From Myxococcales bacterium (GTDB lineage: Bacteria > Myxococcota_A > Polyangia > Polyangiales > Polyangiaceae), in contig JACPVJ010000184.1 in NCBI GenBank assembly GCA_016191785.1, positions 248,001 to 312,000 of the forward strand: a stretch of DNA of 64,000 nucleotides. The letters run 5' to 3'. Within the stretch, counting starts at the first letter, position 1, and each line of letters starts with the position of its first letter. Under the pieces are notes generated by a model. The model made no database searches. It saw only the letters and a list, made by a program, of their open reading frames with translations, and was not told the DNA's origin. The position numbers were made by a program, and so were the translations under genes. Of the stretch, positions 32,067-64,000 are shown piece by piece.

Positions 32067-33101
32067 ATGTTTGAGCCGCGGGTTTCCAGTGCGCCGCCCA
32101 TTTCCGAACGGGCGTCGCGAATTTTGGTGGTGAGCCCGGACCCGGCCCACCAGGCCGAGCTCGTGAGCCTGCTCGACCAGGACGGCTACGAAGCGCTGAA
32201 GCTCTCCGACGTGGACGAGCTGATCCGGGTCGTCGCGGAGTTCGAGCCCGATCTGGTGCTGCTCGACGCGGCTCAGGTGACCACCAGCAGCGCGGAGCTC
32301 TGCGGAGAGCTGTCGGCGCTCGACCCCAAGCGCCACCTGCCTCTGGTGGTCGTGGGCTGGCAGGCCGCGGAAGAGGGCGAAGTGGTCGCCCACCTGCTGT
32401 CCGGCGCGGACGACTTCGTTCGCGACCCGGGAGCCGTGGGCGAGCTCTCTGCTCGGATCCGCGCGCGCCTCCGCGTCAAGCGGCTGGTCGACGCGTTGCA
32501 CCGGGTCCGCAACGAACGGGACCTGTTGCGTCGTGACGCCGAGAGTGACGCGCTCACCGGCTTGATGAATCGCCGTGCGCTCGAGCGCGCGGCCCAGTCG
32601 CGCGTCGACAAGCGCGAGCGATTCGGAGTGCTCTTCGTCGATGGCGACCGATTCAAGCAGATCAACGACGGCTACGGCCACCTGGTCGGCGACCGAGTGC
32701 TCGTCTCGATCGCCGAGATGCTCCGGGCAGGGCTACGCCCCGGCGACGCCGTGGGTCGCTACGGCGGCGAGGAGTTCGTGGCCATCGTCGCGGGCGCCGG
32801 TCCCGAGTCAGCGAGGCTCGTCGCCGAGCGCCTCAGGCGGAGCATCGAGGCACTTCCGCCGCTGAAGCCGGGCCCAGAGCGCGTCACCGTGAGCATCGGC
32901 ACCGCGGTGTTCGATCCGCGGAGCCCCGAGGACGTGCAATCGGTCTTCCGCCGGGCAGATCTGGCGCTCTACGCTGCCAAACGCGCGGGCCGCAACCGCG
33001 TGGTGATGCACACCGCCGAGTGCGAAGAGGCGCTGTCCCCCGCTCAGTCGTCGGCGCGACCTTCGTCGCCCTTGCCGCGGGTCCCGGAGGTCGGGGGATG
33101 A
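32067..33101 (+). CDS. Receiver-GGDEF diguanylate cyclase
   Basis: A 344-residue protein: receiver-like domain at ~18-135 (ASRILVVSPDPAHQAELVSL, with a possible phospho-Asp in LVLLDAAQ but the usual acidic pair reduced to SPD), then a GGDEF domain with LTGLMNRRALE, FVDGDRFKQINDGYGH and active-site GGEEF. RPGD lies five residues before GGEEF, the canonical RxxD inhibitory site, so an active, product-inhibited c-di-GMP synthase is predicted. ATG 32067; stop overlaps the next HDOD gene as ATGA. Confidence 0.9.
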   Translation: MFEPRVSSAPPISERASRILVVSPDPAHQAELVSLLDQDGYEALKLSDVDELIRVVAEFEPDLVLLDAAQVTTSSAELCGELSALDPKRHLPLVVVGWQAAEEGEVVAHLLSGADDFVRDPGAVGELSARIRARLRVKRLVDALHRVRNERDLLRRDAESDALTGLMNRRALERAAQSRVDKRERFGVLFVDGDRFKQINDGYGHLVGDRVLVSIAEMLRAGLRPGDAVGRYGGEEFVAIVAGAGPESARLVAERLRRSIEALPPLKPGPERVTVSIGTAVFDPRSPEDVQSVFRRADLALYAAKRAGRNRVVMHTAECEEALSPAQSSARPSSPLPRVPEVGG

Positions 33102-33943
33102 ACGAGCAGAAGCTCGCCAGCATCGCCCCGGCGCCCGACCCGGACGGCGGACTCGAGCGCGAGCTCTTGAAGCGCCTCAACACCGGCCGTGCGGGGTTGC
33201 CCGTCTTGCCTCAGGTCGCCGGACTGGCGCTCCGCCTCGCCGGCGACCGCAACGCGAATGTCGCCGAGCTCGCCCGCCTGGTCGAGACCGATCCGCCGAT
33301 CGCCGCGAGATTCCTCTCGGTCGCGAACAGCGCGCTCTACTTCCGGGGCTTCGTCATCGGCTCGACTCAGGCCGCCATCGTGCGCCTGGGCTTGGCCCGA
33401 ACCCGCGACCTCTTGTTCCAGGTGGTCTACTCGAACACGACCGTCGGCCTCAAGCGCTTTCAATCCGAGGTGCGCGTCTCGTTCGAGCGGAGCGTCAGCT
33501 GCGCCATTGCGACGCGGGTGGCGTCGCAAGTGCTGGGGATGCCGCTCGAGCTCTCGTACATGTGCGGGCTGCTCCACGACATCGGCGAGGCGCGTGTCTA
33601 CCGCGTGTTCGAGCACATCCCCGCGGCCACGCCCGGCAGCCCCGAGGTGGAGCGGCTGGTACGAAAGCATCACACCCGCGCAGGCGCCGAAATCGCGATG
33701 GCCTGGCATTTGCCTTCCGAGATCGTCGATGCCTGCGCTGCACACCACGATCTGGGCGCCTCCGATTCGGTGGCTGTGAGACTCGTCATGCTCGCCGATC
33801 TGGTCACCGAAGCTGTCGAACCGGATTCCGACCGGCTCTTCACCCTCGGGATCAACGACGCGCAGTGGCGGCGTTTCAAAGAAGCCTATGTGCGTGAGAG
33901 CGCGACCTCGCGCCAGCGCGCTGCGCAACTGACATCCGCTTGA
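33098..33943 (+). CDS. HDOD-domain protein
   Basis: A 281-residue protein that is essentially one HDOD domain: LPVLPQVAGLALRLAGDRNA, LVETDPPIAARFLSVANSAL, YMCGLLHDIGEARVYRVFEH, and AWHLPSEIVDACAAHHDLGA. The HD pair is kept, but HDOD proteins generally lack proven hydrolase activity. Translational overlap with the diguanylate cyclase gene suggests the two work together, perhaps the HDOD protein as an effector or scaffold for c-di-GMP signalling (inference). Confidence 0.9.
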   Translation: MNEQKLASIAPAPDPDGGLERELLKRLNTGRAGLPVLPQVAGLALRLAGDRNANVAELARLVETDPPIAARFLSVANSALYFRGFVIGSTQAAIVRLGLARTRDLLFQVVYSNTTVGLKRFQSEVRVSFERSVSCAIATRVASQVLGMPLELSYMCGLLHDIGEARVYRVFEHIPAATPGSPEVERLVRKHHTRAGAEIAMAWHLPSEIVDACAAHHDLGASDSVAVRLVMLADLVTEAVEPDSDRLFTLGINDAQWRRFKEAYVRESATSRQRAAQLTSA

Positions 33944-36261: not shown

Positions 36262-37503
36262 ATGGTCGTCATGAGCGTGCGAGCCGAGCTAGTCCCATCC
36301 ATCGAGCCCGCCAGCGGGGCCCCTTCGTCAGCGCGAGACTCCGGCGAAGTGGCTCGCGCCACCCCGGCGACCGTGCTCTTGGTCGACGACGACGAGCTCC
36401 TGGTCAAGTCCCTGGCCCGCGTCCTGAAGTCCAAGGGCTTCTCGGTCAAGACCGCGACCAATGGCGAGGCGGCGACCCGCTGCATCGCCGAAGAGCGGTT
36501 CGACGTCGTGCTGAGCGACATCTCGATGCCGGGGATGACCGGCATCCAGCTCTTGCGGCAGCTGCGGCAGACGGACCTCTTGGTGCCGTTCGTCCTGATG
36601 ACCGGGGATCCGGCGGTCTCGACCGCCATCGAGGCCATGCAGTTCGGTGCGTTTCGCTACCTGACCAAGCCCGTGGCCCACGACTCCCTGGTCGAGGTGA
36701 TCGAGAGCGCAGCCCACTGCCACCGCATGGCCCGGGTGAAGGCCCGGGCTGCCGAGATCCTCGGGGTGAACGCCGGCCCCGGCGATCGAGCTGGTCTCGA
36801 GGCCAGCTTCCGTCGTGCGCTGGACACGCTCTGGATCGCCTACCACCCCATCGTCAACCCGCGGACCCGGACGGTGTTCGGACACGAGGCGCTGCTCCGC
36901 AGCCGGGAACAGAGCCTGCCCCACCCCGGGGCGGTGCTGGACGCGGCCGAGCGCCTGGACGCCCTCGACGTGCTGGGCCGAGCGATTCGCGCGCGGGCCG
37001 CCGAGCCGGTGGCGGACTCCAGCGAATGCGGGCTCTTGTTCGTCAACCTCCACGTGCGGGACTTGATGGACCCGACGCTCACCTCGGACGACGCCCCGCT
37101 GTCTCGCATCGCCGACCGCGTGGTGCTCGAGATCACCGAGCGGGCGGCGCTCGACGAGGTCGGCGATGTGCGCGCCAAGATCTCTCGCCTGCGCGAGATG
37201 GGCTACCGCATCGCCGTCGACGACCTGGGAGCAGGCTACGCCGGGTTGACCTCGTTCGCCCAGCTCGAGCCCGAGGTGGTGAAGCTCGACATGAGCTTGA
37301 TCCGCGGCATCGACCAGAGCCCGACCAAGCAGAAGGTGGTGCGCAGCATGACCTCGCTCAGCCGCGACATGGGCATGCTGGTGGTCGCCGAGGGCGTCGA
37401 GACGGTCCGCGAGTGCGAGACACTCCTCGAGATCGGGTGCGATCTCTTGCAAGGCTTCTTGTTCGCACGGCCGTCGCCGCCGTTCCCGGCGATCGGCTGG
37501 TAG
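36262..37503 (+). CDS. Receiver-EAL phosphodiesterase
   Basis: A 413-residue response regulator. Receiver at ~37-160: LLVDDDELLVKSLARVLKSK, phospho-Asp in VVLSDISMPGMTG, and YLTKPVAH. EAL domain from ~180: FGHEALLRS with Glu209, FVNLHVRDL, LEITERAAL, VDDLGAGYAGLTSFAQLEPE, VKLDMSLIRGID and VAEGVET. All main metal and catalytic residues appear present, so c-di-GMP breakdown controlled by phosphorylation is likely. The start may be ATG 36262 or 36271; neither has a clear ribosome site. Confidence 0.92.
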   Translation: MVVMSVRAELVPSIEPASGAPSSARDSGEVARATPATVLLVDDDELLVKSLARVLKSKGFSVKTATNGEAATRCIAEERFDVVLSDISMPGMTGIQLLRQLRQTDLLVPFVLMTGDPAVSTAIEAMQFGAFRYLTKPVAHDSLVEVIESAAHCHRMARVKARAAEILGVNAGPGDRAGLEASFRRALDTLWIAYHPIVNPRTRTVFGHEALLRSREQSLPHPGAVLDAAERLDALDVLGRAIRARAAEPVADSSECGLLFVNLHVRDLMDPTLTSDDAPLSRIADRVVLEITERAALDEVGDVRAKISRLREMGYRIAVDDLGAGYAGLTSFAQLEPEVVKLDMSLIRGIDQSPTKQKVVRSMTSLSRDMGMLVVAEGVETVRECETLLEIGCDLLQGFLFARPSPPFPAIGW

Positions 37504-37561: not shown

Positions 37562-37981
37562 ATGAGCAAGACCAAGATGTTTCGCGACCAGCACGACGAC
37601 CTGCTCAAGGCCGCGGCCAAGCTCAAGGCAGAGCTGAACGCGGACAAGATCGGCAAGGACGCCGTGCCCGCGAAGAGCGCGCTGTCGCAGCTGCTCGGCA
37701 AGTTGAGTGTGCACCTGGCGATGGAAGACAAGTCACTCTACCCGCAGCTTCTCAAGCACTCCGACCAGAAGGTCAAGACGACTGCGAGCCGTTTCGTCAG
37801 CGAGATGGGCGCCATTGGGAAGGTGCTCGCGGACTACCAGAAGGCCTGGCCGTCGGACGTCGCGCTGAAGCAGAACCCCCGCGGCTTCGTCCAGCAGACG
37901 ACCACGATCCTCGATGCGCTCGCCAAGCGGATCGAAAAAGAGAACGGCGAACTCTACAAGATGGTCGACACCTTGGCCTGA
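37562..37981 (+). CDS. Hemerythrin-like four-helix protein with reduced ligand set
   Basis: A 139-residue helical protein. The first half resembles HHE/hemerythrin: KMFRDQHDDLLKAAAKLKAE, then VHLAMEDKSLYPQLLKHS. The second half, where HxxxE ligands should recur, reads LAKRIEKENGELYKMVDTLA with Arg at the His position. Only three His (about residues 11, 51 and 66) are present in total, so a full di-iron site is doubtful. It may be a scaffold, mononuclear metal or regulatory variant. Good GGAGA ribosome site. Confidence 0.75.
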   Translation: MSKTKMFRDQHDDLLKAAAKLKAELNADKIGKDAVPAKSALSQLLGKLSVHLAMEDKSLYPQLLKHSDQKVKTTASRFVSEMGAIGKVLADYQKAWPSDVALKQNPRGFVQQTTTILDALAKRIEKENGELYKMVDTLA

Positions 37982-51600: not shown

Positions 51601-52488
51601 TCAGGCCGCGACGAGCGAGCTCAGCGCGTGAACCCGCGGAAGCGCCTCCGCGACGCATGCTTCCACCACCGCGCGGGTCAACCCCAGGGCCGCTCGTTCG
51701 GATTCTTGGGCACTTCGCGTCAGACCGAAGACGTCGGCACCGAAGCCGAACGCATGGGCGAGCGAGCTTGCCACGTGGACCAACCCGATCAGCTTCCGTA
51801 CCTCCGCTGGCGCCCCGGAAGGGTCGTGGTGCCAGCGCGCGGTGAGCGGATACTCTTTGGGCAGTCCCCACCGGTTCAGGAGCACCTCGCCGACCTCGGT
51901 GTGGTCGATTCCCAGCGTCTCGCGCTCGGCGACCACCAACGTCAGGCCTCTCTCTTCGATGGCCGCCACGATGTCCGAGTGGTGCCGTTCGAGGAGCACG
52001 CCGATCGCCAGCTTGCCGACGTCGTGCAGCATACCCGCGGTGAAGGCCACCCCCTGGCACTCTGGCGCGACTCGACGCGCGAGCTCTTCGGTCAGCGCCG
52101 CGGTTCCCACGTTGTGGTGCCACGCCCCGCGCGCGTCCATGCGGTAGCCGGCCAGCTGCGGCGGTACGCGAGAAGCCAAAGACGCACACAACGCGAGATC
52201 CCGGATCCGGTCGTTCCCGAGCAACGCGGTCGCGTGGGCGATCGACGCCACCTCGCGTCGGAGGCCGAATTGAGCCGAGTTCGCCAGTTCCAGGGTGCGA
52301 GCGGTGAGCGCCGCGTCGAGCCTGAGGATGGCTTCCACCGCTGGCGGCGAGGCACGGTCGGTGTTGAGCAGCTCCAGGAGCTTTGACAGCGCCGCAGGCA
52401 GGGGCGGCAAGGCATCGACTTGGGCGCACAAGAGCGCCAGGTCCCCGTCAGGGAGGGCGGCAGTTGCGAATGCCCGAGCCTTGGCCAT
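51601..52488 (-). CDS. HDOD-domain protein
   Basis: A 295-residue protein: LPPLPAALSKLLELLNTDRA, LRLDAALTARTLELANSAQF, FTAGMLHDVGKLAIGVLLER and LGIDHTEVGEVLLNRWGLPK give a complete HDOD domain with the HD pair retained. No other domain. It is divergent from the FIST gene across 92 bp and lies at the end of the chemotaxis operon. Confidence 0.9.
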   Translation of the reverse strand: MAKARAFATAALPDGDLALLCAQVDALPPLPAALSKLLELLNTDRASPPAVEAILRLDAALTARTLELANSAQFGLRREVASIAHATALLGNDRIRDLALCASLASRVPPQLAGYRMDARGAWHHNVGTAALTEELARRVAPECQGVAFTAGMLHDVGKLAIGVLLERHHSDIVAAIEERGLTLVVAERETLGIDHTEVGEVLLNRWGLPKEYPLTARWHHDPSGAPAEVRKLIGLVHVASSLAHAFGFGADVFGLTRSAQESERAALGLTRAVVEACVAEALPRVHALSSLVAA

Positions 52489-52580
52489 CGGAGATGAGTC
52501 GAAGAACGGTCGCGCGCGCGTTCGCTTGAGGGCGCGCGCGGCTGACTCAAGCGCCTAGCCACTGGGTCGTTCAACGGACC

Positions 52581-53693
52581 ATGAACCTCGCCGTTACCCG
52601 CGCGCACACCTCGGACCCGGACGCCGCCCGAGCCGTCGCCGAGCTCGCGCGCGTGCTGGGAGCGCCCAGCTCCGGCGTGCTCTTCTTCGCCTCCCCCAGC
52701 TACGACTCTGCCGCCCTGGCCGCCGGCCTCGAGGGTGTGTTCGCGTGCCCGGTGGTCGGCTGCACCTCGTCGGGCCAGCTCGGGCCGACCGGGTTTCAGC
52801 GCGGCGGGATCACCGCCGTCGGGCTCTCGCACCCCGAGCTGACCCTCACGCCGCACCTGGTGAGCCCGCTCTCGGCATCGAGCGAGCAAGCCTCCGAGAT
52901 CGCTCGGGCGGTCCAGCTGCGCCGTGCCGGGTCGGTGCGACGACCGTTCGGGCTGCTCCTGGTCGATGGGCTCTCGCTGATGGAAGAGCGACTGGTGGCG
53001 TCCCTCTACCAGGCGCTGGGCGACATGCCCATCATCGGCGGCTCGGCCGGAGACGACCTCGCGTTCGAGCGCACCGCTGTGTACCACGACGGGAAGTTCC
53101 TCTCGGACGCGGCGGTCTTCACCGTGTTCGAGACCTCGCTGCCGTTCGCGACCTTCAAGTTGCAGCACTTCGCGACCAGCGAGCGCAAGGTGGTGGTCAC
53201 CGCGGCCAATGCCCACGAGCGACGCGTGCTCGAGCTCAACGGTGAGCCCGCCGCCGACGTGTACGCCGAGGTGTTGGGTCTGCGGCGCGAGGAGCTCGGC
53301 GCTGGCGTGTTCTCCCGCCATCCGCTGGTCCTCCAGGTGGCGGGGGACGACTACGTGCGCTCGATCCAGAAGATGCACCCGGACGGCTCGTTCAGCCTGT
53401 TCTGCGCCATCGACGAGGGCGTGGTGCTCTCGGTGGGTGACAGCCTGGACGCGCTCGACGTCCTGCGCGGGGCATTCGACCGCGTGTCGAACGCGGTCCC
53501 CGAGCCCGCGCTGGTGCTGGGGTGCGACTGCATCTTGAGGCGCCTCGAGTTCGAGGAGAAGGGCATGGATCAACGGATCGGAGAGTTCCTGGCCGAGCGC
53601 TCGGTGCTCGGGTTCTCGACCTATGGCGAGCAGTACAACGGGCTGCACGTGAACCAGACCTTCACCGGCGTGGCGATCGGAGGCGGGGGCTGA
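52581..53693 (+). CDS. FIST-domain sensor protein (NosP-like)
   Basis: A 370-residue soluble protein with FIST N (FACPVVGCTSSGQLGPTGFQ, then GITAVGL) and FIST C (DYVRSIQKMHPDGSFSLFCA, then SVLGFSTYGEQYNGLHVNQT) domains. Some FIST proteins (NosP) bind haem and nitric oxide and control a neighbouring histidine kinase. Here the kinase gene overlaps directly (TGATG), which fits that arrangement. Haem binding cannot be judged from the sequence alone. Confidence 0.88.
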   Translation: MNLAVTRAHTSDPDAARAVAELARVLGAPSSGVLFFASPSYDSAALAAGLEGVFACPVVGCTSSGQLGPTGFQRGGITAVGLSHPELTLTPHLVSPLSASSEQASEIARAVQLRRAGSVRRPFGLLLVDGLSLMEERLVASLYQALGDMPIIGGSAGDDLAFERTAVYHDGKFLSDAAVFTVFETSLPFATFKLQHFATSERKVVVTAANAHERRVLELNGEPAADVYAEVLGLRREELGAGVFSRHPLVLQVAGDDYVRSIQKMHPDGSFSLFCAIDEGVVLSVGDSLDALDVLRGAFDRVSNAVPEPALVLGCDCILRRLEFEEKGMDQRIGEFLAERSVLGFSTYGEQYNGLHVNQTFTGVAIGGGG

Positions 53694-54751
53694 TGGCAGA
53701 CGCTGCCGACGTGCTCGAGCGAAAGCTGGCGGCGCGCGACAAGACCATCGCCGCGCTGATGCGGCGGGTGGAAGGCGCCACGGTCAGCAACAACAGCGCC
53801 TTTTCGACCTTCGAAGAGAACATCCGCCTCGAGCAGGTCGTCGCGCGCAAGACCGAAGAGCTGAAGGCGGCTCAGGAGCGCCTGCTCCGCGAGATGGAAG
53901 TGCAGCGAGCGCTGGAGGTAGAGCTGCGCCAGGCGCAGAAGCTCGAGGCCGTCGGTCGCCTGGCTGCGGGCGTGGCCCACGAGATCAACACTCCGGTTCA
54001 GTACGTCAGCGACAGCCTCAGCTTCGTGCGCGAAGCACTCGCCGACCTCTCGGGATACATCGCGAAGGCCCGGGAGCTCAGCGCTGCGGTCGTCGCCGAC
54101 GACCCCGCGAACGCCGCGGCGCAGAGCTGCGAGGCGCTCGCGGAGGAGAGCGATCTGGACTACCTGCTCGAGAACCTGGGCCCTGCCGTGGATCGCGCGC
54201 TTGGGGGACTCGAACGCGTCGCCAACATCGTCCGCGCGCTCAAGCGCTTCGCCCACCCCGGCTCGGCCCAGATGGCCCCGGCCGACCTCAACGAGGCGAT
54301 CGCCAGCACCTTGACCATCGCGGCGAACGAGTACAAGTACGTCGCCGAGCTGGTGACCGACTATGCGGAATTGCCCCTCGTGACCTGCCACCTGGGGGAC
54401 CTCAACCAGGCGGTGCTCAACCTGGTGGTCAACGCGGCGCACGCCATCGCCGACGTGGTGGCCGGCAGCGGCGCCCGTGGCACCATCTCGGTTCGCACGC
54501 GCCACGACGGCGACCACGTTCAAGTGGAGATCGCGGACACCGGAGGCGGGATCCCGGACGAGATCCGAGAGCGGATCTTCGAGCCGTTCTTCACCACCAA
54601 AGAGGTCGGCCGCGGCACGGGTCAGGGGCTCGCGATCGCGCGCAACGTGATCCACGACGACCACGGCGGCGAGCTCTCGTTCGTGAGCGAGCGGGGCGTG
54701 GGCACGACCTTCCGAATTCGCCTGCCCGTCACGCCGCTGCGGCCCCGCTGA
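53693..54751 (+). CDS. Soluble histidine kinase partnered with the FIST protein
   Basis: A 352-residue kinase: N-terminal coiled coil (~1-80), H-box His96 in [20 protein letters not shown], a ~110-residue helical insert, and an ATPase domain ([53 protein letters not shown]). No membrane segment, PAS or receiver, so input is probably the FIST protein. Its last 23 bases overlap the convergent receiver-HDOD gene. Close paralogue of the kinase at 61814-63253. Confidence 0.92.
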
Positions 54752-55931
54752 CGACCGCTCGGGCTGCTTGCCGCCAGTGCGACAGGCGTGGCGCAAGGCC
54801 GGTTCGCTCCAAGAGCTCGGCGTCGGGGCTCGCGGTCTCGAGGGCGTCGTCGAGCGACGGGGCATCCTCGATGGCCCGGGCGAAGACCGCCGCGGCGTGG
54901 ACCACGGCCAGGAGCGGGCTCGGGTGCTCGGCGCGGTGGGGCGTGTGGTGATACGCCGCGGCCTCGAGCACCGCGAAGGGCAGGCCCCAGGTGCCCAAGA
55001 GGTAGGCGCCGACCTCTGCGTGCGAGGCGCCCACCAGCTCGAGCTCGAGCTCGTACGTCGGCCGCGAATCGACCGCGTGCCGCCGCGCGACCTCGTGGGA
55101 GACCGCCGGCAGCGCGAGAGCGAGGACCAGCTCGCCGATGTCGTGCACGACCCCGGCGGTGAAGGCCGTCGCCTGGTCGGGGCCGGGCGCGAAGGCCCGG
55201 GCGAGGCGTGCCGTCAGCATCGAGTGCCGCTGCAGCTCCGAGAGCGAGCACGCGGCAACCTGGTCCCCATCGACCGTGGAGAAGATGTGGGCCGAGATCA
55301 CCAGCGTGCGGACGGTCTCGAAACCCAGGTACGCGACCGCGTCCCGAACGCTGCTGGTGGCGACCGGCAGGCCGAAGTAGCCCGAGTTGACCAGCTTCAA
55401 GAGCTGCGCGCACATCGCCGGGTCGGTCTCGACGACGGTCGCGACGTCGGCCACGTCCGCGTCATTGCTGCCGACCAGGCGCGCCAGCTCCCAGTACACG
55501 GCCGGCGCCGACGGGAGGCACTCGATCGCTCCGATCACGCCGCGGACCGACTCGGCGTGAAGGTAGCGGTTCAGCTCACAGGTCCGGTCGATCACCGTAC
55601 GCAGCTGCTCGGGCTCGCAGGGTTTGCTCAGGAACTGCTGGGCCACGGGCAGCGCCCGCAGCATGGCGCTCTGCTCGGCGTAGCCCGAGAGCACGATCCG
55701 AGCGGTGGAAGGGAAGGCCTCGCGGACCCGGCCGAGCAGGGCCGCGCCGTCCATGCCGGGCATGCGCATGTCCGACACGACCACGTCGAACGGCCCCCGC
55801 TCGAGCTCGGACAGCGCGGCCTTACCCCCCAGGGCGAAGACCATGTCCCACTTCTTGCGCTCGCGCCGCAAGATGTTCTTCAGTCCGTCGAGCACGTGCT
55901 GCTCGTCGTCGACAAAGAGGATGCGTTTCAT
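54729..55931 (-). CDS. Receiver-HDOD response regulator
   Basis: A 400-residue protein. Receiver ~1-118: MKRILFVDDEQHVLDGLKNI, phospho-Asp in [20 protein letters not shown], and FLSKPCEPEQL. HDOD ~130-350: CLPSAPAVYWELARLVGSND, TDPAMCAQLLKLVNSGYFGL, GVVHDIGELVLALALPAVSH. It is the probable target of the adjacent kinase, to which it is tail-to-tail and overlapping. Paralogue of the partial gene at 63250. Confidence 0.92.
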   Translation of the reverse strand: MKRILFVDDEQHVLDGLKNILRRERKKWDMVFALGGKAALSELERGPFDVVVSDMRMPGMDGAALLGRVREAFPSTARIVLSGYAEQSAMLRALPVAQQFLSKPCEPEQLRTVIDRTCELNRYLHAESVRGVIGAIECLPSAPAVYWELARLVGSNDADVADVATVVETDPAMCAQLLKLVNSGYFGLPVATSSVRDAVAYLGFETVRTLVISAHIFSTVDGDQVAACSLSELQRHSMLTARLARAFAPGPDQATAFTAGVVHDIGELVLALALPAVSHEVARRHAVDSRPTYELELELVGASHAEVGAYLLGTWGLPFAVLEAAAYHHTPHRAEHPSPLLAVVHAAAVFARAIEDAPSLDDALETASPDAELLERTGLAPRLSHWRQAARAVVSGAAAA

Positions 55932-56006
55932 GCTGGGACCCCTCTGGGGTGCTGAGCGGCACGCGGGCGACGAACTTGAGCCCGGGTTGTCGACGACACG
56001 GGCCGG

Positions 56007-56957
56007 TCAGGCCGCTCGCGCCACCGAAGCGGCATGTCGCAGCGTGTAGGCAACGCCCTCGTCGAACGAGAACCGGGGGCGCCACCCCAGCGCCGACAGG
56101 GCGCGCGGATCGAGCACGCTGCGCTCGAGGTCACCGGGCCGCGGCGGCGCGGGGTGGAGCTCGGGCTCGACCCCCAGCGCGCGGCCGAGCGCGACGGCCA
56201 CCGCCCGTGTGCTGAGACCGCGCCCGCTGCCCACGTTGAAGGTGCCCTCGGCGTGACCGTCGACGGCCAAGAGCGCGGCGCTCACGACGTCGGCTACGAA
56301 CACGTAGTCGCGAATGCAGCCGGCATCGCCCGCGCGGCGGCGGCCGAAGATCTGGAGCGGTAGCCCTGAGGCCAGGCGCGAGAGGAAGATCGCCACCACC
56401 CCCGCCTCGCCCGCCGGATCTTGCCGCGGGCCGTACACGTTGCCGAAGCGCAGCACCGTGGCGGGCAGGCCGAAGCACTGCCGGTAGACCCCGAGGTAGT
56501 GCTCGAACGCCGCCTTGGCCGCGGCGTACGGGCTCTTCGGCCCGAGGGGCCAGCCCTCGCGGGCGCGGGCGCCGCGCGGCACCTCGCCGTAGATCGCGCC
56601 GCCGGTGGACGCGAACACCACGCGGCGGACGCCGGACCGACGCGCCGCATCGAGGACGTTCAGGCCGCCCAGCACGTTCACGCCGGCGTCCTCGTCGGGC
56701 GCGTCCACCGAGCGCTTGACGCTGGCCTGGGCCGCCAGGTGGCACACGTGGGTCGGCGCGAAGCGCTGGAAGGTCGAGGCCACGTCGCCTCGCTGACGAA
56801 CGTCCACGTGATACAGCGGCACCTCGGGCGCGACGTTTTCTTGGGAGCCGCTCGACAGGTCGTCGAGCACGGCCACCGCGTCGCCGCGCGCGCGCAGCGC
56901 GTCGACCAGGTGGCTCCCGATGAAGCCCGCGCCCCCGGTGACCAGCACGCGCTTCAC
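56007..56957 (-). CDS. NAD-dependent sugar-nucleotide epimerase/dehydratase
   Basis: A 316-residue extended SDR: KRVLVTGGAGFIGSHLVDAL gives the Rossmann motif, VVFASTGGAIYG the Ser/Thr residue, and the YAAAK segment the catalytic Tyr and Lys. RFGNVYGPRQDP and the RDYVFVADVVSAAL segment match UDP-glucose 4-epimerase (GalE-like) proteins. Together with the UGM-like enzyme encoded next, conversion of UDP-glucose to UDP-galactose and then UDP-galactofuranose is plausible, but the substrate is not proven. ATGA overlap with the mutase gene. Confidence 0.88.
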   Translation of the reverse strand: MKRVLVTGGAGFIGSHLVDALRARGDAVAVLDDLSSGSQENVAPEVPLYHVDVRQRGDVASTFQRFAPTHVCHLAAQASVKRSVDAPDEDAGVNVLGGLNVLDAARRSGVRRVVFASTGGAIYGEVPRGARAREGWPLGPKSPYAAAKAAFEHYLGVYRQCFGLPATVLRFGNVYGPRQDPAGEAGVVAIFLSRLASGLPLQIFGRRRAGDAGCIRDYVFVADVVSAALLAVDGHAEGTFNVGSGRGLSTRAVAVALGRALGVEPELHPAPPRPGDLERSVLDPRALSALGWRPRFSFDEGVAYTLRHAASVARAA

Positions 56958-58189
56958 GACAGCTTCTCGCGCATCTTGTCGAGCACGCCTCGCTTGCGCC
57001 CGGGGTCACCCGACGTGAGGTCCGGAAGGCCGTCGGCCAGGGTGAGCGCCATGCGGATGCAGGTGTCCTTGGAGCAATAGGCGTGCACGCCGGAGCGCCC
57101 GATGGGGACCACCTTCGAGCGCGCGGCCAGAGCCAGCTGGTGCTCTACGCGGCTCAGGGTCTCGCGAGTGCTGACCGGGTAGATGCGCTCTTTGTTCCAT
57201 ACCCACTTCTCGACGATCTCTTTCTTCAGCACGTTGCGGCAGAACCAGCCGACCTCTTCGTGGAACTTCGCCTCGTCGCACTCGCCCACCCAGGGGAACT
57301 CGAAGTCGAGCAAGGCGTAGCGAGACTCGACCGCGTACTGCTGCTTGAAGTCCATCACTCGAACGAAGCTGTAGTGGTTCGGGAAGCTGGTGGCGTACGA
57401 GGGCATCACCTTCCCCTCGGCCTCGACCACGACGTAGACGATGTACGTGTTGATGAAGCCGAGCTGCTTCGACAGGGGCAGCGTGCTGACGATCAAGTCG
57501 GCCTCGAGCGGGTCGCCGTCCACGGTCACGCGTTGAAAGTCGTCGCTCACGTCGCACAGGCCGCTCGTGACCTGCACGCCCTCGGTCATGCCCGACCACA
57601 TCGGGTTGTAGTCGCCGGGGTGCCCCTGCCAGCGTCCGCGAAACATGTCGGGCTTTTCGCGCAGGGTCAGGGTGCGAAAGCGCGCCCACTCGGCGTCCAT
57701 GTCCCGCGGGTGGATCTTCCACTGCTTCAGGTTGTACTTCTCGACGTACGTCTCGTAGAGCGTGCGGCCCATGCGGCTGACGATGTACGCCTCGAAGTTC
57801 GAGAAGTCGGGCTCGCTCAGGTTCAACTGGTAGAGCTCGTAGATGACCTTCTCGGGGTTCGGCAGCTTCATCACGTTCTTGATCGTGATCGGGAAGTCGT
57901 GCGGGTCGTCGAGCGTGCCGTCGATGGACACCGCCGGGTGGTACTCGTGATCGTCGGTCGGAGGCGGCGTCTGCGTCAGCCACCTCTCGAAGACCGCGCG
58001 GAGCCGGTCTTCGTCGGTGTACATGATTTGCGGCCCGAACTCGTAGGGGATGCCCTCGTACTTCTGGGTTCGCGAGCAGCCGCCGAGGGCCTCTTTCTCG
58101 ATCACCGTGATGTCGTCGAGGCCTCGCGCGCGGAGCGCGTGGGCCGTGGCGCAACCCGCAGGGCCGCCGCCCAAGATCGCGACCTTCAT
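56954..58189 (-). CDS. UDP-galactopyranose mutase-like flavoprotein
   Basis: A 411-residue protein with an FAD Rossmann motif (VAILGGGPAGCATAHALRAR) and the mutase signature region EFGPQIMYTDEDRLRAVFE, then SRMGRTLYETYVEKYNLKQW, then GRWQGHPGDYNPMWSGMTEG, and the late VPIGRSGVHAYCSKDTCIRM. Order and spacing match Glf, with substitutions (FGPH to FGPQ). It would make UDP-galactofuranose for surface glycans; a related amine-oxidase-fold dehydrogenase is the alternative. Middle gene of a three-gene overlapping operon. Confidence 0.78.
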   Translation of the reverse strand: MKVAILGGGPAGCATAHALRARGLDDITVIEKEALGGCSRTQKYEGIPYEFGPQIMYTDEDRLRAVFERWLTQTPPPTDDHEYHPAVSIDGTLDDPHDFPITIKNVMKLPNPEKVIYELYQLNLSEPDFSNFEAYIVSRMGRTLYETYVEKYNLKQWKIHPRDMDAEWARFRTLTLREKPDMFRGRWQGHPGDYNPMWSGMTEGVQVTSGLCDVSDDFQRVTVDGDPLEADLIVSTLPLSKQLGFINTYIVYVVVEAEGKVMPSYATSFPNHYSFVRVMDFKQQYAVESRYALLDFEFPWVGECDEAKFHEEVGWFCRNVLKKEIVEKWVWNKERIYPVSTRETLSRVEHQLALAARSKVVPIGRSGVHAYCSKDTCIRMALTLADGLPDLTSGDPGRKRGVLDKMREKLS

Positions 58190-59157
58190 GCCCGCGTCTC
58201 CTTGCCGTGGCGGACCAAGAGCTGTGTAGTGACCTCGACCAGCTCGTCGAGCGAGTTGTCCTCGAGCCGCGTCAGGCCCGGGATCTCTCGCCAGCGGCGG
58301 CCTTCGAACAACTTCACCCCGACCTCGGCGGGCACCGCCTCACCGTGGACGAACAGACGCTTGTTGAGCACCGCGTGGCCGGGCTCCCACGGGAACCAGT
58401 GGCTCAGGGTGCCGAGCGCGGGCTGGCCATGGCACGAGTTGGAGAGCAGCGTGGGTGTGCCCAGGGCGACGCCGATCGGCCACACGCCCGAGTCGGTCGC
58501 GATCAACGCGTCCGAGAGGCCGATCAACACCAGGTCGTGGATCAGGCGCTTGCCCTGCCAATGGGCGGCATCGACGATCCTCGGGTGGCTGGGGAAGGGG
58601 GTGCACGACGGATCTCCGATGCGCACCACCTTGAAGCCGCGCTCGGCCCAGTACTCGGCGAGCCGCATGAACGGTTCGGGGCTGACGAAGCGCTCGGGCT
58701 CGTGTGCCGGCGTGTAGTACTTGTAGCCGGGCTCCCGCGCGTGAATGGTGATGATGCGGTCGCCCGGCGAGAGCCCTCGGGCTCCGAGTTGGACCAGCAC
58801 CTTCTCGGCGATGTGCTCGGGGATCTCGAGGCCCGCCGGCTCGGTGTTCTCGATCAAGTAGTTCCAGATCCGACCGAAGCTGGGCTCGGGTAGGGCGTTC
58901 GGATCTCCGCGGAAGTCGCCGACGGCGCAGGCCGCGTCCAAGTGCGGGTTGCACACCGCCAGGTCGGCATGAAAATCGATGGCCGGGTCGAACACCCACC
59001 CGATCTTCTGGCCAGTGCGCTGCTTGTACTTCGCCATGCAGACGTGGTCGGCGACGCAGTTTCCCAGGGCCTTGGGGACCAGCGGGCGAAACCAGCGGAT
59101 GGGCTCGACGGTCGGCGTCGTCTTGGTGGCGGGCGTGGGGGAATGATGCGCGAGCAC
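58186..59157 (-). CDS. Glycosyltransferase-like protein (GT9 or TIGR04372 type)
   Basis: About 323 residues from a GTG at 59157; the start is uncertain (in-frame TTG at 59253 possible). DRIITIHAREPGYKYYTPAH, FMRLAEYWAERGFKVVRIGD and LIGLSDALIATDSGVWPIGV, then LGTPTLLSNS, give the GT-B pattern with the D-S-G nucleotide-site motif used by heptosyltransferase-like and TIGR04372 proteins. It probably transfers a sugar made by the two enzymes downstream into a surface polysaccharide. ATGA overlap with the mutase. Confidence 0.7.
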   Translation of the reverse strand: MLAHHSPTPATKTTPTVEPIRWFRPLVPKALGNCVADHVCMAKYKQRTGQKIGWVFDPAIDFHADLAVCNPHLDAACAVGDFRGDPNALPEPSFGRIWNYLIENTEPAGLEIPEHIAEKVLVQLGARGLSPGDRIITIHAREPGYKYYTPAHEPERFVSPEPFMRLAEYWAERGFKVVRIGDPSCTPFPSHPRIVDAAHWQGKRLIHDLVLIGLSDALIATDSGVWPIGVALGTPTLLSNSCHGQPALGTLSHWFPWEPGHAVLNKRLFVHGEAVPAEVGVKLFEGRRWREIPGLTRLEDNSLDELVEVTTQLLVRHGKETRA

Positions 59158-59285
59158 GTCGCGGTCATTTGCAAGGGCAGTACCAGCCCGCGATGCCGCC
59201 TGCACGCGCCCGTCTGGGCGGCGCTGCTCGACCGCTGGCGCTCTGCGCGTCAAGCGCGTGACACCGGCCTGCGCAGAGTAACCAC

Positions 59286-59630
59286 ATGGTCAGCGGATCG
59301 GGTGGAACGGAACTCGCATCCCGAAGTCGCGCGATGGCAGGCTCCGATCCGACTCGCGTGGGGCCGGAGCACCTGGCGCTCACCGGACGCATCTTCGCGC
59401 TCTTGCGCGCCCTCGACGACCCGCTGGTGGGAACCACCCAGCTCGAACAGTTGGTCGCCGCCATCCCCGTGCTCGAGGCGCGCTGCATCCGGAAGGCCAG
59501 CCGCGCCCGGATGCCCCTGGGATCGGCACTCGCTCGGATCGGAAACCGCGGTCTCGAGGCAGTGCTCTTGCAGCTCCTCGAAGACCTGACGATCTGCAAG
59601 GCGGATGCGGAAGAAAGCGAGAAGGCCTGA
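59286..59630 (+). CDS. Truncated HDOD-like protein
   Basis: A 114-residue frame (98 from the alternative ATG at 59334). Residues ~40-105 align in pattern with the N-terminal part of HDOD domains: DPLVGTTQLEQLVAAIPVLE, then ARCIRKASRARMPLGSALAR, then IGNRGLEAVLLQLLEDL. Everything after this, including the HD segment, is missing. It may be a remnant or a small regulator. It converges with the broken PilZ gene. Confidence 0.5.
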   Translation: MVSGSGGTELASRSRAMAGSDPTRVGPEHLALTGRIFALLRALDDPLVGTTQLEQLVAAIPVLEARCIRKASRARMPLGSALARIGNRGLEAVLLQLLEDLTICKADAEESEKA

Positions 59631-59638
59631 CCGCTTGC

Positions 59639-59946
59639 TCAGGCCGCGATCACCCTCAGCTTGCGGAGCTCGGTGATCACGGCGTCGACGATCAGATCCT
59701 CGATGTGAGATGCAGACCGGCAGAACTCGAGCCCGAGGCCCAGCCCCCGACTCGACGTCGCACATCGACGGGCTCGCCGATCGGCGGCGGCAGCGACTGG
59801 CCCGTGACGTAGGCGCCGCCCGCGGACAGGTTTTCCACCCGGAAGTCGCCGATCCGCGCGCCGTCCCGGGAGAGCACCGCCAGCGCGTCGAAGGCCACCC
59901 GTGGGTCGGTGCGTTGCTCGGAGGTCAAGAGCGTCGTGTCTGACAT
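59639..59946 (-). pseudogene. PilZ-domain gene disrupted by deletion and frameshift
   Basis: From ATG 59946 the frame reads RTDPRVAFDALAVLSRDGAR, then FRVENLSAGGAYVTGQSLPP, then IGEPVDV, a normal PilZ start with both c-di-GMP motifs, but it stops at 59692. A second frame, open until 59639, reads RGLGLGLEFCRSASHIEDLI, then VDAVITELRKLRVIAA, the expected PilZ C-terminus. Joining them leaves about six residues where the family usually has about 30, so an internal deletion with frame shift is likely. Gene death or a sequencing/assembly error cannot be separated. Confidence 0.75.
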
Positions 59947-60016
59947 GCCCGGCGGGAACGGGTCTTGCTCAGTGGACTTGAGGGGAGGTCAAGCCCCCGC
60001 GCCTTCGACCGTTCAG

Positions 60017-61159
60017 ATGTCCGTGAAGCCGAAAGTGATGTGCGTCGACGACGAGCCCCAGGTCCTGGCGGGTCTCGAGCTCCACGTGCGCCGGCGGCAC
60101 CAGATGCTCGCGGCGGGCTCGGGGCCGGAAGCGCTCGAGCTCGCGGCGGCCCACCCGGACATCGCCGTGGTCGTCTCGGACATGCGCATGCCGAAGATGT
60201 CCGGCGCCGAGCTCCTCGCCAAGCTGCGGGTCGCCTTGCCCGACGCGACTCGCATCTTGCTCACCGGCCAAGCCGACATGGAGAGCGCCATTTCGGCTGT
60301 GAACGAGGGGCACATCTTCCGGTTTCTGACCAAACCTTGCCCGCCCGAAACGCTGGGCCAGGCCCTGGCCGCGGCGGTCGAGCAGAACCGCCTGGTCACC
60401 TCCGAGCGGGTGCTCCTCGAGCAGACCCTGCGGGGGGCGATCCGCGCCCTGGCCGACGTCTTGGCGCTCACCAATCCCGTCGCATTTGGAACGGCAAAAC
60501 GGCTCGAGAGCTTGGCTGCGTCGATCGCCCGCGAGGTCGCCTTCGAGCCGCTGTGGCAAGTCGAGGTGGCGGCGGTGTTGTCGCAGCTCGGCGTCGTGAC
60601 CTTGCCCCAAGACATACTGGAAAAGCTCCGGGTCGGCGCGGCCCTGGACGCCCACGAGCAAGAGATGGTGGCGCGCGCGCCGGCCGCGGCCGAGAAGCTC
60701 GTCTCGGGCATCCCCCGGCTCGAGCCCGTGCTCCAGATGATGGCGGCGGTGGGCAGCCCGGCCCGTCGTGTCGACTCCCCCGAGGTCGCCCGTGGCGCCG
60801 CCATCCTGCGGCTCGCCATCGCCTTCGACCGACTCGACACCCGCGGCGTCAGCGCGGCCGAGGTCATCGATCGCCTCCGGACCCAAGAGCCGAAGCACGA
60901 TCCCGGGCTGATGGACGCGCTGACCCGCCTGCGGTGCGGTGCCGACGAGATCCACCGCATGGCGTTGCGCTCGCTCGCGCCCGGGATGGTGCTGGCAGAA
61001 GACCTGCTCTTGGCCAGCGGTGCGCTGCTGGTCCCTCGTGGCTACGAAGTCACCGTCAGCTTCGTCGAGCGCATCAAGAACTTCGCACCCGGGGCCTTGC
61101 GCGAGCCCGCCCTAGTGTTGATCAAGGGGACCCCCGCCCACGCCACGAGGGTGGCATGA
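60017..61159 (+). CDS. Receiver fused to a degenerate HD-GYP domain
   Basis: A 380-residue protein. Receiver ~5-125: VMCVDDEPQVLAGLELHVRR, phospho-Asp in VVVSDMRMPKMSGAELLAKL, and FLTKPCPPETL. The C-terminal part aligns with HD-GYP domains but AAVLSQLGVVTLPQDILEKL stands where LxHDIGKIxIPDxIL is expected, so both metal-binding His and Asp are lost, and the GYP motif is absent. It should not hydrolyse c-di-GMP but may bind partners. No clear ribosome site before ATG 60017. First of four signalling genes. Confidence 0.85.
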   Translation: MSVKPKVMCVDDEPQVLAGLELHVRRRHQMLAAGSGPEALELAAAHPDIAVVVSDMRMPKMSGAELLAKLRVALPDATRILLTGQADMESAISAVNEGHIFRFLTKPCPPETLGQALAAAVEQNRLVTSERVLLEQTLRGAIRALADVLALTNPVAFGTAKRLESLAASIAREVAFEPLWQVEVAAVLSQLGVVTLPQDILEKLRVGAALDAHEQEMVARAPAAAEKLVSGIPRLEPVLQMMAAVGSPARRVDSPEVARGAAILRLAIAFDRLDTRGVSAAEVIDRLRTQEPKHDPGLMDALTRLRCGADEIHRMALRSLAPGMVLAEDLLLASGALLVPRGYEVTVSFVERIKNFAPGALREPALVLIKGTPAHATRVA

Positions 61160-61758
61160 TGACGGTCCCCGAGCCGCGTGGACGCCCGGAGATCGCGGGG
61201 GTGGAGGTGCAGGCGGCCAGCATCCGCAGCCGCGAGGCCTTCGTGCGCGAGCGCTTCGGAGCCGACGGCGTGCGGCGCCTCCGCGAGTGCGCCTCGCGCG
61301 AGCTGGTTCAGATCTTCGACGGCAAGAGCTCGGGCGGCGGTTGGGCGCCCTTTGCCAGGCAGGTCGAGGCCACCGAGCTGATCGATCGCCTGTTCGGCGC
61401 GGGGGATCTGGCGCTGGCGGCCGAGCTCGGCGCGTTCGTGGCCACCCACGACGCGGGCGTGTGGAAATCCCTGTTCATGCGGGCCGTGCCGCCCAGTCTG
61501 ATGGCCCGCGTCGTCCCGAGCCTGTGGTCGCACTACTATCGCAACGGCGGCGCGCTGCGCATGCAGATCACGGGGGCGACCGCCATGGCGATTCGCGTCG
61601 AGGGGTTCCCGTCGCCGCACCGCGCGCACTGCTTGGCGATGGCAGGTTGGGCCCGGGCCACGCTCGAGCAGGGGCCGCGAACCGGTGTGCAGGTGAGCGA
61701 GCAGTCGTGTCGAACCAGAGGGGAAGAGGCATGCGAATTCCACGTGACCTGGCGGTGA
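61156..61758 (+). CDS. Myxobacterial TIGR02265/DUF2378-type protein, V4R-like
   Basis: A 200-residue protein. [20 protein letters not shown] starts a helical region ([20 protein letters not shown], then [20 protein letters not shown]) and the C-terminus ends [19 protein letters not shown]. The pattern, including paired Cys before a terminal strand, matches TIGR02265 proteins and the V4R/haem-NO-binding superfamily, as far as can be recalled without a search. It overlaps the receiver-HD gene as ATGA and precedes the kinase by 55 bases, the place held by the FIST protein in the paralogous module, so it may be the sensor. Confidence 0.6.
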
Positions 61759-61813
61759 GCTCACTCGAGGCTGGCCTCGTGCGGTCGTTTCTCCGGAGCA
61801 GGGAGCCGGTCCG

Positions 61814-63253
61814 TTGAGCTCGGCATCGTCCCCCGCACCCTCGCACACCCGCGTGCTCGTCATCGACGACAACGAGGGGATCCACGCCACGCTGCGCGCG
61901 CTCTTGCGCGGCCGAGGCGGCCAGGTGCACGCCGAGGCCAGTGGCGTCGAGCGTGAGCTGTTCGGGTCCGCCGCCGGGGCCGCCAAGCCGTTCGAGATCG
62001 CCGGCGCCCAGTGCGGGGAAGAGGGCCTCGCGAAGACCGAACAGGCGGTGAACGAAGGCCAGCGCTTCGCCATTGCCTTCGTCGACCTGTGCATGCCGGG
62101 CTGGGACGGCATCGAGACGACCGAGAAGCTCTGGGCGACCGACCCCGACCTGCAGGTCGTGCTGGTGACCGGCAGCTCCGACGTGCCCTGGGCCGAGATC
62201 CGCCAGCGGGTCGGGTTTCGCGACAACTTCTTGGTCTTGAAGAAGCCCTTCGAGCCGGTCGAGGTGAGGCAAATCGCGCAGGCGCTGGCGCGCAAGTGGG
62301 ACCTGAACGCCGCTGTCGCCGAGCGCATCCACGAGCTGGAAAACCGGCTCTTGGCCCGGAACGTGGAGCTCGAGCTGCTCGCCGAGCACCTTCAGCGCGA
62401 GGCCGCCGAGCGCGCTCGTATCGAGGTCGAGCTGCGCCTGGCGCAGAAGCTCGAGGCTGTGGGGCAGCTGGCCTCGGGGATCGCCCACGAGATCAACACT
62501 CCCATCCAGTACGTCAGCGACAGCTTGCACTTCCTGAAGAACGCGACATCCGACATGCGCAGCTTGATCGAAGCCTATCGGAACGAGCGGCCCGGGCTCG
62601 AGGCCGGGCCGACCGGGGCCGAGGCCCTCGAGCGGCTCGCCGAAGCCGAAGACGCCGCAGATCTCGAGTACCTCGACGAAGCCCTCCCCCAGGCGCTCCA
62701 GCGCGTGTTCGAGGGCGTCGGTCACGTGGCCAAGCTGGTCCGCTCGATGAAAGAGTTCGCCCACCCCGGGCAGCGCGAGCTGGCGCCGGCCGACCTGCGC
62801 CGGGGCATCGAGAACACCGTCACCGTGGCCCGGAACGAATACAAGTACGTCGCCGACGTGGTCCTCGAGCTCGACGAGATCCCCCTGGTGACGTGCAACG
62901 CGGGGGAGCTCAACCAGGTCTTCTTGAATCTGATCGTGAATGCCGCGCACGCCATCGCCGACCGCGGCGAGCCCGAGGCGCGAGGCACCATCACCATCCG
63001 CACGGCCCGCGACGGCGGCATGGTTCGGGTGTCGATCGGCGACACCGGCTGCGGCATCCCCGAGGCGGCCCAGCAGCGCATCTTCGAGCCGTTCTTCACC
63101 ACCAAAGAGGTCGGGCGCGGCACCGGCCAGGGGCTCGCCATCGCCCGGAGCATCGTCGATCAGCACGGGGGCAACATCGCCTTCGAGACTGAGCAGGGGC
63201 AGGGGACCACCTTCCACATCTGCCTGCCGGTGAGCGGGCCGGAGACGCCATGA
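61814..63253 (+). CDS. Receiver-histidine kinase
   Basis: A 479-residue soluble protein. Receiver ~12-165 with an insertion of ~25 residues after the first helix ([20 protein letters not shown]) and phospho-Asp in [20 protein letters not shown]. Then come a coiled coil, H-box His225 in [20 protein letters not shown], a helical insert and the ATPase domain ([53 protein letters not shown]). The start is TTG 61814. From His225 onward it parallels the FIST-linked kinase closely. Overlaps the next gene as ATGA. Confidence 0.9.
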
Positions 63254-64000
63254 AACGAGTCGTTTTCGTCGACGACGAGCAGCGCGTGCTCGACGGCCTG
63301 CGCGACATGCTGCGCAAGCACCGCAAGAAGTGGGACATGCACTTCGCGCTCGGGGGTCAAGAGGGCATTCGTCTGCTCGACGCCGGAGGGGTGGACGTGC
63401 TGGTCAGCGACATGCGGATGCCGGGCGTCGACGGCGTGAATCTGCTGCGCCATGCCCACCAACACCACCCAGCGGTGGTGCGCTTCATCCTCTCGGGCTT
63501 CGCCGAAGAGGCGGCCTGCATGCGAGCCGTCCCCGTGGCTCATCAGTTCTTGAGCAAGCCCTGCGATGCGGCGCAGCTCGAGAGCGCCATCGATCGCGCG
63601 CTGGCGCTCCGCGAGTCGCTCGACGACGAGGCGCTGCGCGCGTACCTGGGCACGGTCGACAAGCTGCCGAGCCAGCCCAAGCTCTATCACGAGCTGCAGA
63701 AGCTGATGGTCGACGCCAAGGCCGGCACCGAGAGCGTGGCCCGCCTGGTCGAGCGCGACATGGCGATGAGCGCCAAGCTGCTGCAGCTGGTCAACTCGGG
63801 TTTCTTCGGCGTGGCACGCCGCGTCTCGAGCATCGACCACGCGGTCTCGCTCCTGGGCATTCAGACCATCCAGAACCTGGTGCTCGCCGCCGAGGTGTTC
63901 GGTACCAGCACGACCAACGCCCGGTTGGCCGAGCTCCAAGCCCACGCCTTGCTCACTGCGCGGCTGGCCGCGCGCATCGCGCCGAACAAGTCGGTGGGCG
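63250..64000 (+). CDS. Receiver-HDOD response regulator (partial)
   Basis: At least 250 residues; the C-terminus is beyond the window. Receiver: [20 protein letters not shown], phospho-Asp in [20 protein letters not shown], and [55 protein letters not shown], then [20 protein letters not shown]. Nearly the same architecture as the gene at 54729-55931, including the [12 protein letters not shown] segment. The start overlaps the kinase stop as ATGA, which makes it the likely phosphorylation target. Confidence 0.9.

Follow-up and report, generated by a model that had tools for sequence, protein, structure and literature searches.

A NosP-like FIST module and a paralogous V4R-linked module, both with REC-HDOD regulators, in a Polyangiaceae genome

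In the closest described systems, an auxiliary sensor controls a histidine kinase. NosP-NosK-NosR of Burkholderia pseudomallei comprises a FIST auxiliary sensor, a kinase without a recognised sensor domain and, as the product of the third gene of the operon, NosR, in which a REC domain is joined to a degenerate HD-GYP domain (PMC12570481). In Legionella pneumophila, the FIST auxiliary sensor NosP controls the kinase NahK, which phosphorylates the receiver-bearing output NarR, a GGDEF-EAL enzyme, and in Shewanella oneidensis an auxiliary nitric oxide (NO) sensor, HnoX, acts with the kinase HnoK, which feeds HnoB, a phosphodiesterase of cyclic diguanosine monophosphate (c-di-GMP), and with HnoD, which inhibits HnoB (PMC8846402). 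Here, a stretch of 64,000 nucleotides (the window) from a Myxococcales bacterium of the Polyangiaceae is analysed (contig JACPVJ010000184.1, positions 248,001 to 312,000; G000:C169:248001-312000 in our numbering of this 8.3 Mb genome, G000, which is in 216 contigs). It carries two related gene modules, termed 1 and 2, whose regulators include REC-HDOD proteins. Module 1 is probably a NosP-type auxiliary-sensor system, and module 2 an old paralogue of the same core (kinase, REC-HDOD and NosR-like protein), which would be reusable with an exchanged sensor.

The two modules and their relation to NosP systems

The genes of the modules are, in window coordinates:

52581 to 53693, plus strand: FIST/FIST_C protein, NosP-like, predicted auxiliary nitric-oxide (haem) sensor (Pfam FIST 1.9e-41, FIST_C 1e-20)
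53693 to 54751, plus strand: NosK-like soluble histidine kinase 1, with H96 (Pfam HATPase_c 6.3e-26, HisKA weak)
54729 to 55931, minus strand: REC-HDOD response regulator 1 (Pfam REC 1e-21, HDOD 1.9e-46)
60017 to 61159, plus strand: NosR-like regulator, REC and degenerate HD-GYP (HD_5 4.2e-17, REC 7e-17, scored on a longer open reading frame from 59909)
61156 to 61758, plus strand: V4R-like protein, predicted small-ligand sensor of module 2 (Pfam V4R 4.4e-6)
61814 to 63253, plus strand: REC-histidine kinase 2, with H225 (REC 6.4e-12, HATPase_c 4.5e-27; start codon uncertain, 61814 or 61853)
63250 to 64000 in the window, plus strand: REC-HDOD response regulator 2 (REC 1.2e-17, HDOD 3.5e-25 on the in-window part; the complete gene, L007:3250-4434, runs past the window end to 64434 in window numbering)

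An earlier note on this DNA had placed a FIST gene, a kinase and a receiver-HDOD together at 52581-55931, and Pfam confirms all three. The kinase ATG overlaps the FIST stop; REC-HDOD 1 is convergent with kinase 1 (23 bp overlap) and, being on the opposite strand, does not belong to the kinase operon. The V4R-like protein, receiver-kinase and receiver-HDOD that the note had listed from 61156 on are likewise all present, while the gene that precedes them, encoding a REC and degenerate HD-GYP protein, had been overlooked. Its stop overlaps the start of the V4R gene, and the order in module 2 is thus NosR-like, V4R, REC-kinase, REC-HDOD.

Module 1 comes close to the NosP-NosK-NosR nitric-oxide systems already described because its FIST protein matches the NosP model end to end and because the overlooked gene is NosR-like, both matches being under the cut-offs of their models. 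The match of the FIST protein to NCBIfam NF041558 NosP (E 2.6e-117) takes residues 8-367 over model positions 1-368 of 368, which upholds the likeness to NosP claimed earlier, and the protein of 370 amino acids has the NosP architecture, with Pfam FIST at 33-222, FIST_C at 224-353 and no other domain. Kinase 1, adjoining and overlapping the FIST gene, resembles NosK in having no recognised sensor domain (Pfam detects only HATPase_c and a weak HisKA). The NosR-like protein matches NCBIfam NosR NF053512 (9.4e-58, 196 bits) and pairs, as NosR does, a receiver with an HD-GYP-type domain of altered catalytic motif (Pfam REC and HD_5). When REC-HDOD 1 is compared with the same NosR model, the best stretch is the receiver, residues 4-123.

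The window differs from the Burkholderia system in that its NosR-like gene is placed in module 2 and that HDOD has no occurrence in the text of PMC12570481. Its outputs, HDOD and degenerate HD-GYP proteins, also differ from NarR, and its FIST sensor differs from the Hno sensor, which has an HNOB domain. In the Hno circuit, HnoB is a REC-EAL protein and HnoD a degenerate HD-GYP protein, and we know of no HDOD regulator there.

A profile of the kinase N-terminal region, built from the core FIST-linked kinases, indicates that this region of kinase 1 is common to other FIST-linked kinases: it matches 13 of 24 of these at E <= 4e-7 within that set, and does not match kinase 2 at E 0.1. Since six sequences, including two near-copies, went into the profile and the stretch that it covers is coiled-coil-like, its weak matches may be inflated. 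Four further FIST loci lie elsewhere in this genome (contigs C54, C75, C83 and C206), which makes five altogether.

Kinases 1 and 2 are 54% identical over 305 amino acids, beginning about 50 residues before the H-box histidines (H96 and H225), and the two REC-HDOD regulators are 45% identical over 406 columns (E 3e-99), far beyond chance. The earlier statements that the kinases share the region from the H-box on and that the HDOD regulators share their architecture therefore hold. In two trees, REC-HDOD 2 groups with the REC-HDOD of L127 (support 100/100 and 100/99), which is interrupted by an in-frame stop and was used only for its open part, and REC-HDOD 1 groups with that of L124 (89/81 and 100/97). 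Since each thus groups with one from another genus, the two modules are, on the evidence of the trees, old paralogues. The same groupings reject a recent local duplication of one module; of the duplicated module described in the note, the paralogy stands and the local duplication does not. The kinase and REC-HDOD trees contain the same two large clades.

Recurrence of the module and of its core

In a survey of 317 genomes of the class, FIST matches at 1e-55 or better numbered 41, in 39 genomes, and all 41 surroundings were inspected, some on contigs of only 3-8 kb. At seven of the 41, namely those of G000, G001, G028, G175, G286, G213 and G285, both a REC-HDOD and a kinase of this family lie no more than a few kb away. 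The one-strand order FIST, kinase, REC-HDOD, NosR-like is found in G028, G175 and G286; REC-HDOD is divergent in G213, and in G285 the FIST gene is followed by another kinase, with the core adjoining. If HDOD genes were evenly placed, one would be expected within 6 kb of a FIST gene in about 1.4% of cases, an estimate from 10 HDOD matches in 8.3 Mb whose assumption does not hold in the G000 genome. On the FIST tree, the core-linked FISTs are grouped (3 changes, with none of 500 shuffles as low).

Beyond the class, the best 80 of at least 389 confirmed FIST relatives were examined in named genomes; 15 have kinase, REC-HDOD and NosR-like genes, 3 have kinase and NosR-like genes, and 11 have the kinase alone. 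The fraction of 15 in 80 is biased upwards by the choice of the best 80 and by a query alignment that held only core-linked FISTs. In twelve of the 15, which come from Pseudomonadota (five Kosakonia, Rouxiella, Dickeya, Phytobacter, two Xanthomonas, Luteimonas and Azoarcus), the four genes share a strand; the other three (L190, L208 and L225) are taken to be the same as the class-survey contigs of G001, G175 and G213, and the NosR-like gene counted in L190 is that of module 2. The survey of FIST-kinase-HDOD neighbourhoods proposed in the note thus reveals recurrence in both sets. Locus counts rest on six-frame searches because automatic gene calling omits or misreads genes at some loci (few genes are called in L090 and L175, and frames are likely wrong in L207 and L209).

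Among 11 mapped loci, flanking frames are common only to L195 and L202 (Kosakonia sp. S29 and Phytobacter) and to L207 and L209 (the two Xanthomonas); at the threshold used, the other mapped loci have no common flanking frames beyond the unit. The closest named relative of the window FIST, among the best 80 of at least 389, is 88% identical and comes from a Polyangiaceae bacterium (Myxococcota). NosP-like FISTs also occur on 220 plasmid records, all at less than 60% identity to the Kosakonia protein, and a search of E. coli genomes gave no near match to the Kosakonia operon.

The core of kinase, REC-HDOD and NosR-like protein also occurs without FIST, and the kinase then bears PAS, GAF or REC (L124, L128, L130, L132, L133 and L138); weaker MASE-like matches, under the cut-off, are found at FIST-free core loci as well. 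The REC-HDOD match of L113 and the NosR-like match of L129 span little more than the receiver, and L113 was not counted as a full core. Because the core is found with these other sensors on its kinase, it looks like a reusable unit with an exchangeable sensor.

Several observations weigh against the reading of module 1 as a NosP-type system and of module 2 as a paralogue of its core. The window FIST scores 392 bits, under the NosP cut-off of 450, as do its relatives in L195 (385 bits) and L221 (390 bits), so that all three scanned fail; the NosR-like protein is under the NosR cut-off of 400 bits, which all six NosR-like proteins scanned fail to reach. The NosR-like gene starts about 6.3 kb from the end of the FIST gene and lies in the V4R operon, and REC-HDOD 1 is convergent, so module 1 is not itself the four-gene operon. 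FIST genes pair with other kinase types too, and 51 of the best 80 named relatives have no kinase, REC-HDOD or NosR-like gene at the thresholds used, some of their contigs ending near FIST. The core-linked FISTs are not one clade (one origin in 0% of bootstrap trees), and two of their seven rows are near-copies. The N-terminal kinase profile also matches one kinase in a FIST-free locus (L084, E 1.2e-5), the kinase and REC-HDOD trees disagree within a six-member clade, and neither module was found in G002, the third genome of the genus.

Other FIST neighbourhoods in the class contain different HDOD genes. The FISTs of G116 and G123 adjoin a different HDOD gene, and in another family of the class a receiver-less HDOD gene lies beside FIST with another kinase type (L172:4974-6158 and L178:2981-4213), a second kind of FIST-HDOD neighbourhood.

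The inputs of the two modules

In MopR-type V4R sensors, zinc is bound by three cysteines and one glutamate, and in MopR phenol is anchored by Trp134 and His106 (PMC10715001). The V4R-like protein of module 2 scores 27.1 bits, under the Pfam PF02830 gathering cut-off of 31, and searching with this one sequence yielded nothing better than E 0.35, all hits being weak and on unrelated proteins. Against PDB, the A2 profile, built from 23 sequences, matched MopR (7vqf at 4.5e-4 and 5kbe at 1.6e-3) over profile positions 126-179, its C-terminal third. There, C159, E182, C185 and C193 align with C155, E178, C181 and C189 of MopR (numbers counted from the alignment), so that the positions and spacing of the zinc ligands in MopR are kept (solved V4R sensor domains of the MopR/CapR kind are 7vqf, 5kbe and 6iy8). 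Among the 23 sequences, C185 and C193 are invariant, C159 is present in at least 90% and, by manual reading, the glutamate in 19 of 23. The profile alignment stops short of the His106 and Trp134 positions, and Trp134 would fall on Ile138 if the alignment were ungapped; moreover, MopR is a one-component transcription regulator, unlike the window protein.

Because the four zinc ligands of the phenol sensor are kept, the V4R protein more probably binds a small organic ligand than a gas. Gas sensing by this copy, which the note had raised, is not backed by any match: phenol sensors are the nearest relatives of solved structure, and the matches in Pfam, NCBIfam and the V4R sequence and profile searches include no haem or HNOB family. 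On these matches, the reading of the V4R protein as a haem or NO sensor is set aside.

The V4R protein may, of course, be a bystander, the true input of module 2 being the REC domain of kinase 2, fed by another kinase; this is a serious possibility, and one that we hold to be somewhat improbable. The REC domain retains the motifs expected of a working receiver, and the combination of V4R with this core was seen in a single genus only, in its genomes G000 and G001; the other long V4R loci examined (L102-L112) have no core gene. However, the V4R gene sits inside the operon and overlaps the preceding gene, G000 has at L082 a further kinase of the family with a different V4R protein encoded ahead of it, and in G033 receiver and kinase matches adjoin a distant V4R gene (L075). 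The assignment of the V4R protein as the predicted sensor of module 2 is retained below.

The L082 locus is a second V4R-kinase pair in G000 (L082:4977-8043, or G000:C169:204976-208042), with a 393-amino-acid V4R protein (1.7e-9), a 95-amino-acid protein and a PAS-bearing kinase that belongs to this family as well; the C-terminus of the 393-amino-acid protein resembles a second V4R, without a Pfam match. A V4R-like frame that is 36% identical to the window V4R is also found in G251, about 4.6 kb from a FIST gene (L181:8409-9023).

As to the FIST protein, two histidines are candidates for residues that bind haem or NO, namely H196, conserved in 80 of 81 FIST sequences, and H356, conserved in 81 of 81, although this residue belongs to a scan pattern; no solved structure related to the protein by sequence was found. 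It is unlikely that the ligand of the FIST protein is free haem or some other molecule and not NO, in which case module 1 would be a two-component system wired in the same way that responds to haem or redox state. The full-length match to the NosP model and the NosP-NosK-type arrangement speak for NO, even if the score is under the NosP cut-off, CdpA of V. cholerae may detect haem via its FIST-FIST_C domains (PMC8846402), and the title of a Burkholderia thailandensis paper, given in a reference list, contains "NosP detection of heme".

The outputs and their surroundings

Both the phosphoacceptor aspartate D54 and K103 are present in the receivers of 24 of 24 aligned REC-HDOD core members, each receiver being followed by HDOD. 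The HDOD regions of the family vary at the HD dyad (H in 9 of 24 rows, D in 12 of 24), for which reason a uniformly catalytic HDOD is rejected and action through binding partners is the likelier mode. Both window REC-HDODs retain the dyad, which counts against that mode, so enzyme activity of these copies is possible. The NosR-like output looks non-catalytic: by manual reading of the alignment, none of 17 rows has an intact HD dyad, and an active HD-GYP is rejected for this protein.

For the ligand, the direction of control, the phosphotransfer, the partners and the phenotype, we infer the following scheme. The FIST protein would bind haem and nitric oxide and, acting on the N-terminal region of the neighbouring soluble kinase, would govern how that kinase autophosphorylates; the kinase would pass phosphate to REC-HDOD and to the NosR-like REC protein with its dead HD-GYP. 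In module 2, the V4R protein and the kinase-borne REC would take the place of NosP. The nearest candidate partners of the outputs are c-di-GMP proteins such as REC-EAL, together with the flagellar and chemotaxis machinery encoded nearby; the Shewanella parallel suggests a control of c-di-GMP and motility.

The following genes are relevant to this scheme or lie close to the modules:

36262 to 37503, plus strand: REC-EAL protein, predicted c-di-GMP phosphodiesterase, possible further output (EAL 1.2e-51, REC 3.3e-31)
51601 to 52488, minus strand: receiver-less HDOD protein, encoded between the cheB-like and FIST genes (Pfam HDOD 2.8e-48)
59692 to 59946, minus strand: PilZ-like gene, c-di-GMP receptor type, divergent from the NosR-like gene (PilZ 3.8e-4; 21.2 bits, below the cut-off of 22.5)

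Relatives of the REC-EAL protein, 48-50% identical to it, stand beside the FIST module in L164 and L166; in the window it is 15 kb off. The placement beside chemotaxis genes, noticed earlier, is confirmed by Pfam for CheA and CheX, which the Pfam test covered (the names cheB, cheD, cheR, cheW, cheY and MCP are by reading), and has a counterpart in another genus, where the L127 core has as neighbours genes for a hemerythrin and an HDOD protein as well as relatives of the cheB-, cheX-, cheY- and cheD-like genes of the window. The receiver-less HDOD gene, which the earlier note had not mentioned, has a 48% homologue in L127, near the chemotaxis relatives and the core.

A reading in which the adjacent kinases do not act on REC-HDOD and the NosR-like protein, the region being a mere cluster of signalling genes around the flagellar/chemotaxis locus, is very improbable, since compact four-gene operons of the same families occur in other genera with mostly different flanks and the core recurs without FIST. 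In its favour, a segment of about 80 kb here contains 7 of the 10 HDOD matches of the genome, there are many further regulators and kinases in the vicinity, and REC-HDOD 1 is on the opposite strand in the window.

The earlier note had suggested an undescribed pathway. For the pathway as a whole this does not stand, NosP-NosK-NosR having been published (PMC12570481); for the HDOD arm it does, as far as the literature searched goes. No published description of an HDOD arm in FIST/NosP modules was found, in a search that left out most subscription papers and hence most NosP biochemistry. Combinations of the FIST domain with HDOD, of HDOD with histidine kinase and H-NOX, and of HDOD response regulator with Myxococcus gave no paper; the available parts of papers on HDOD with nitric oxide contain nothing on a FIST-linked HDOD arm, and the available part of a Dickeya HDOD paper makes no mention of FIST.

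We are evenly divided on a broader proposal, namely that REC-HDOD would be a conserved, undescribed second arm of NosP-type NO signalling, carried by a four-gene operon in Myxococcota and Pseudomonadota, with a core portable between FIST, V4R, PAS, GAF and REC inputs, and that the two copies in this genus may share one NosR-like regulator, which would join NO and small-ligand inputs. Such sharing is possible because the REC domains of the two REC-HDODs are 59% identical (44% for the parts that follow) and the H-box regions are very similar. NosP signalling would then extend from one output to a branched output. HDOD proteins are common and, to our knowledge, mostly without an assigned input; a compact operon in which the REC-HDOD gene is joined by NosP-like, kinase and NosR-like genes offers a signal that can be tested for them. 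Because this operon occurs in named, cultured bacteria such as Kosakonia, the question is approachable in tractable organisms.

MmoQ is linked to methane oxidation genes and is not known to be linked to FIST. The receiver-less HDOD protein of the window has sequence similarity to this HDOD response regulator (3ljx, 3p3q). The clustered HDOD matches of the genome (G000:C169:231979-312230) include those at window 29837-32002, 33098-33943, 51601-52488, 54729-55931 and 63250-64434. At window 32127-33943, a REC-GGDEF gene overlaps the start of an HDOD gene, which is another HDOD pairing. Directly after REC-EAL, a hemerythrin-like protein is encoded at window 37562-37981 (6.4e-14), and in L127 a 45% homologue of it lies between the core and the HDOD gene. 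Between the two modules, at window 56007-59157, are an epimerase gene, a UDP-galactopyranose-mutase-like gene and one gene without a Pfam match, and the same place in the sister genome G001 is occupied by three genes of equal or nearly equal sizes. The PilZ-like protein has 84 amino acids in the window and 121 in G001 (PilZ 9.2e-12), which reflects either a shortened gene or an assembly error.

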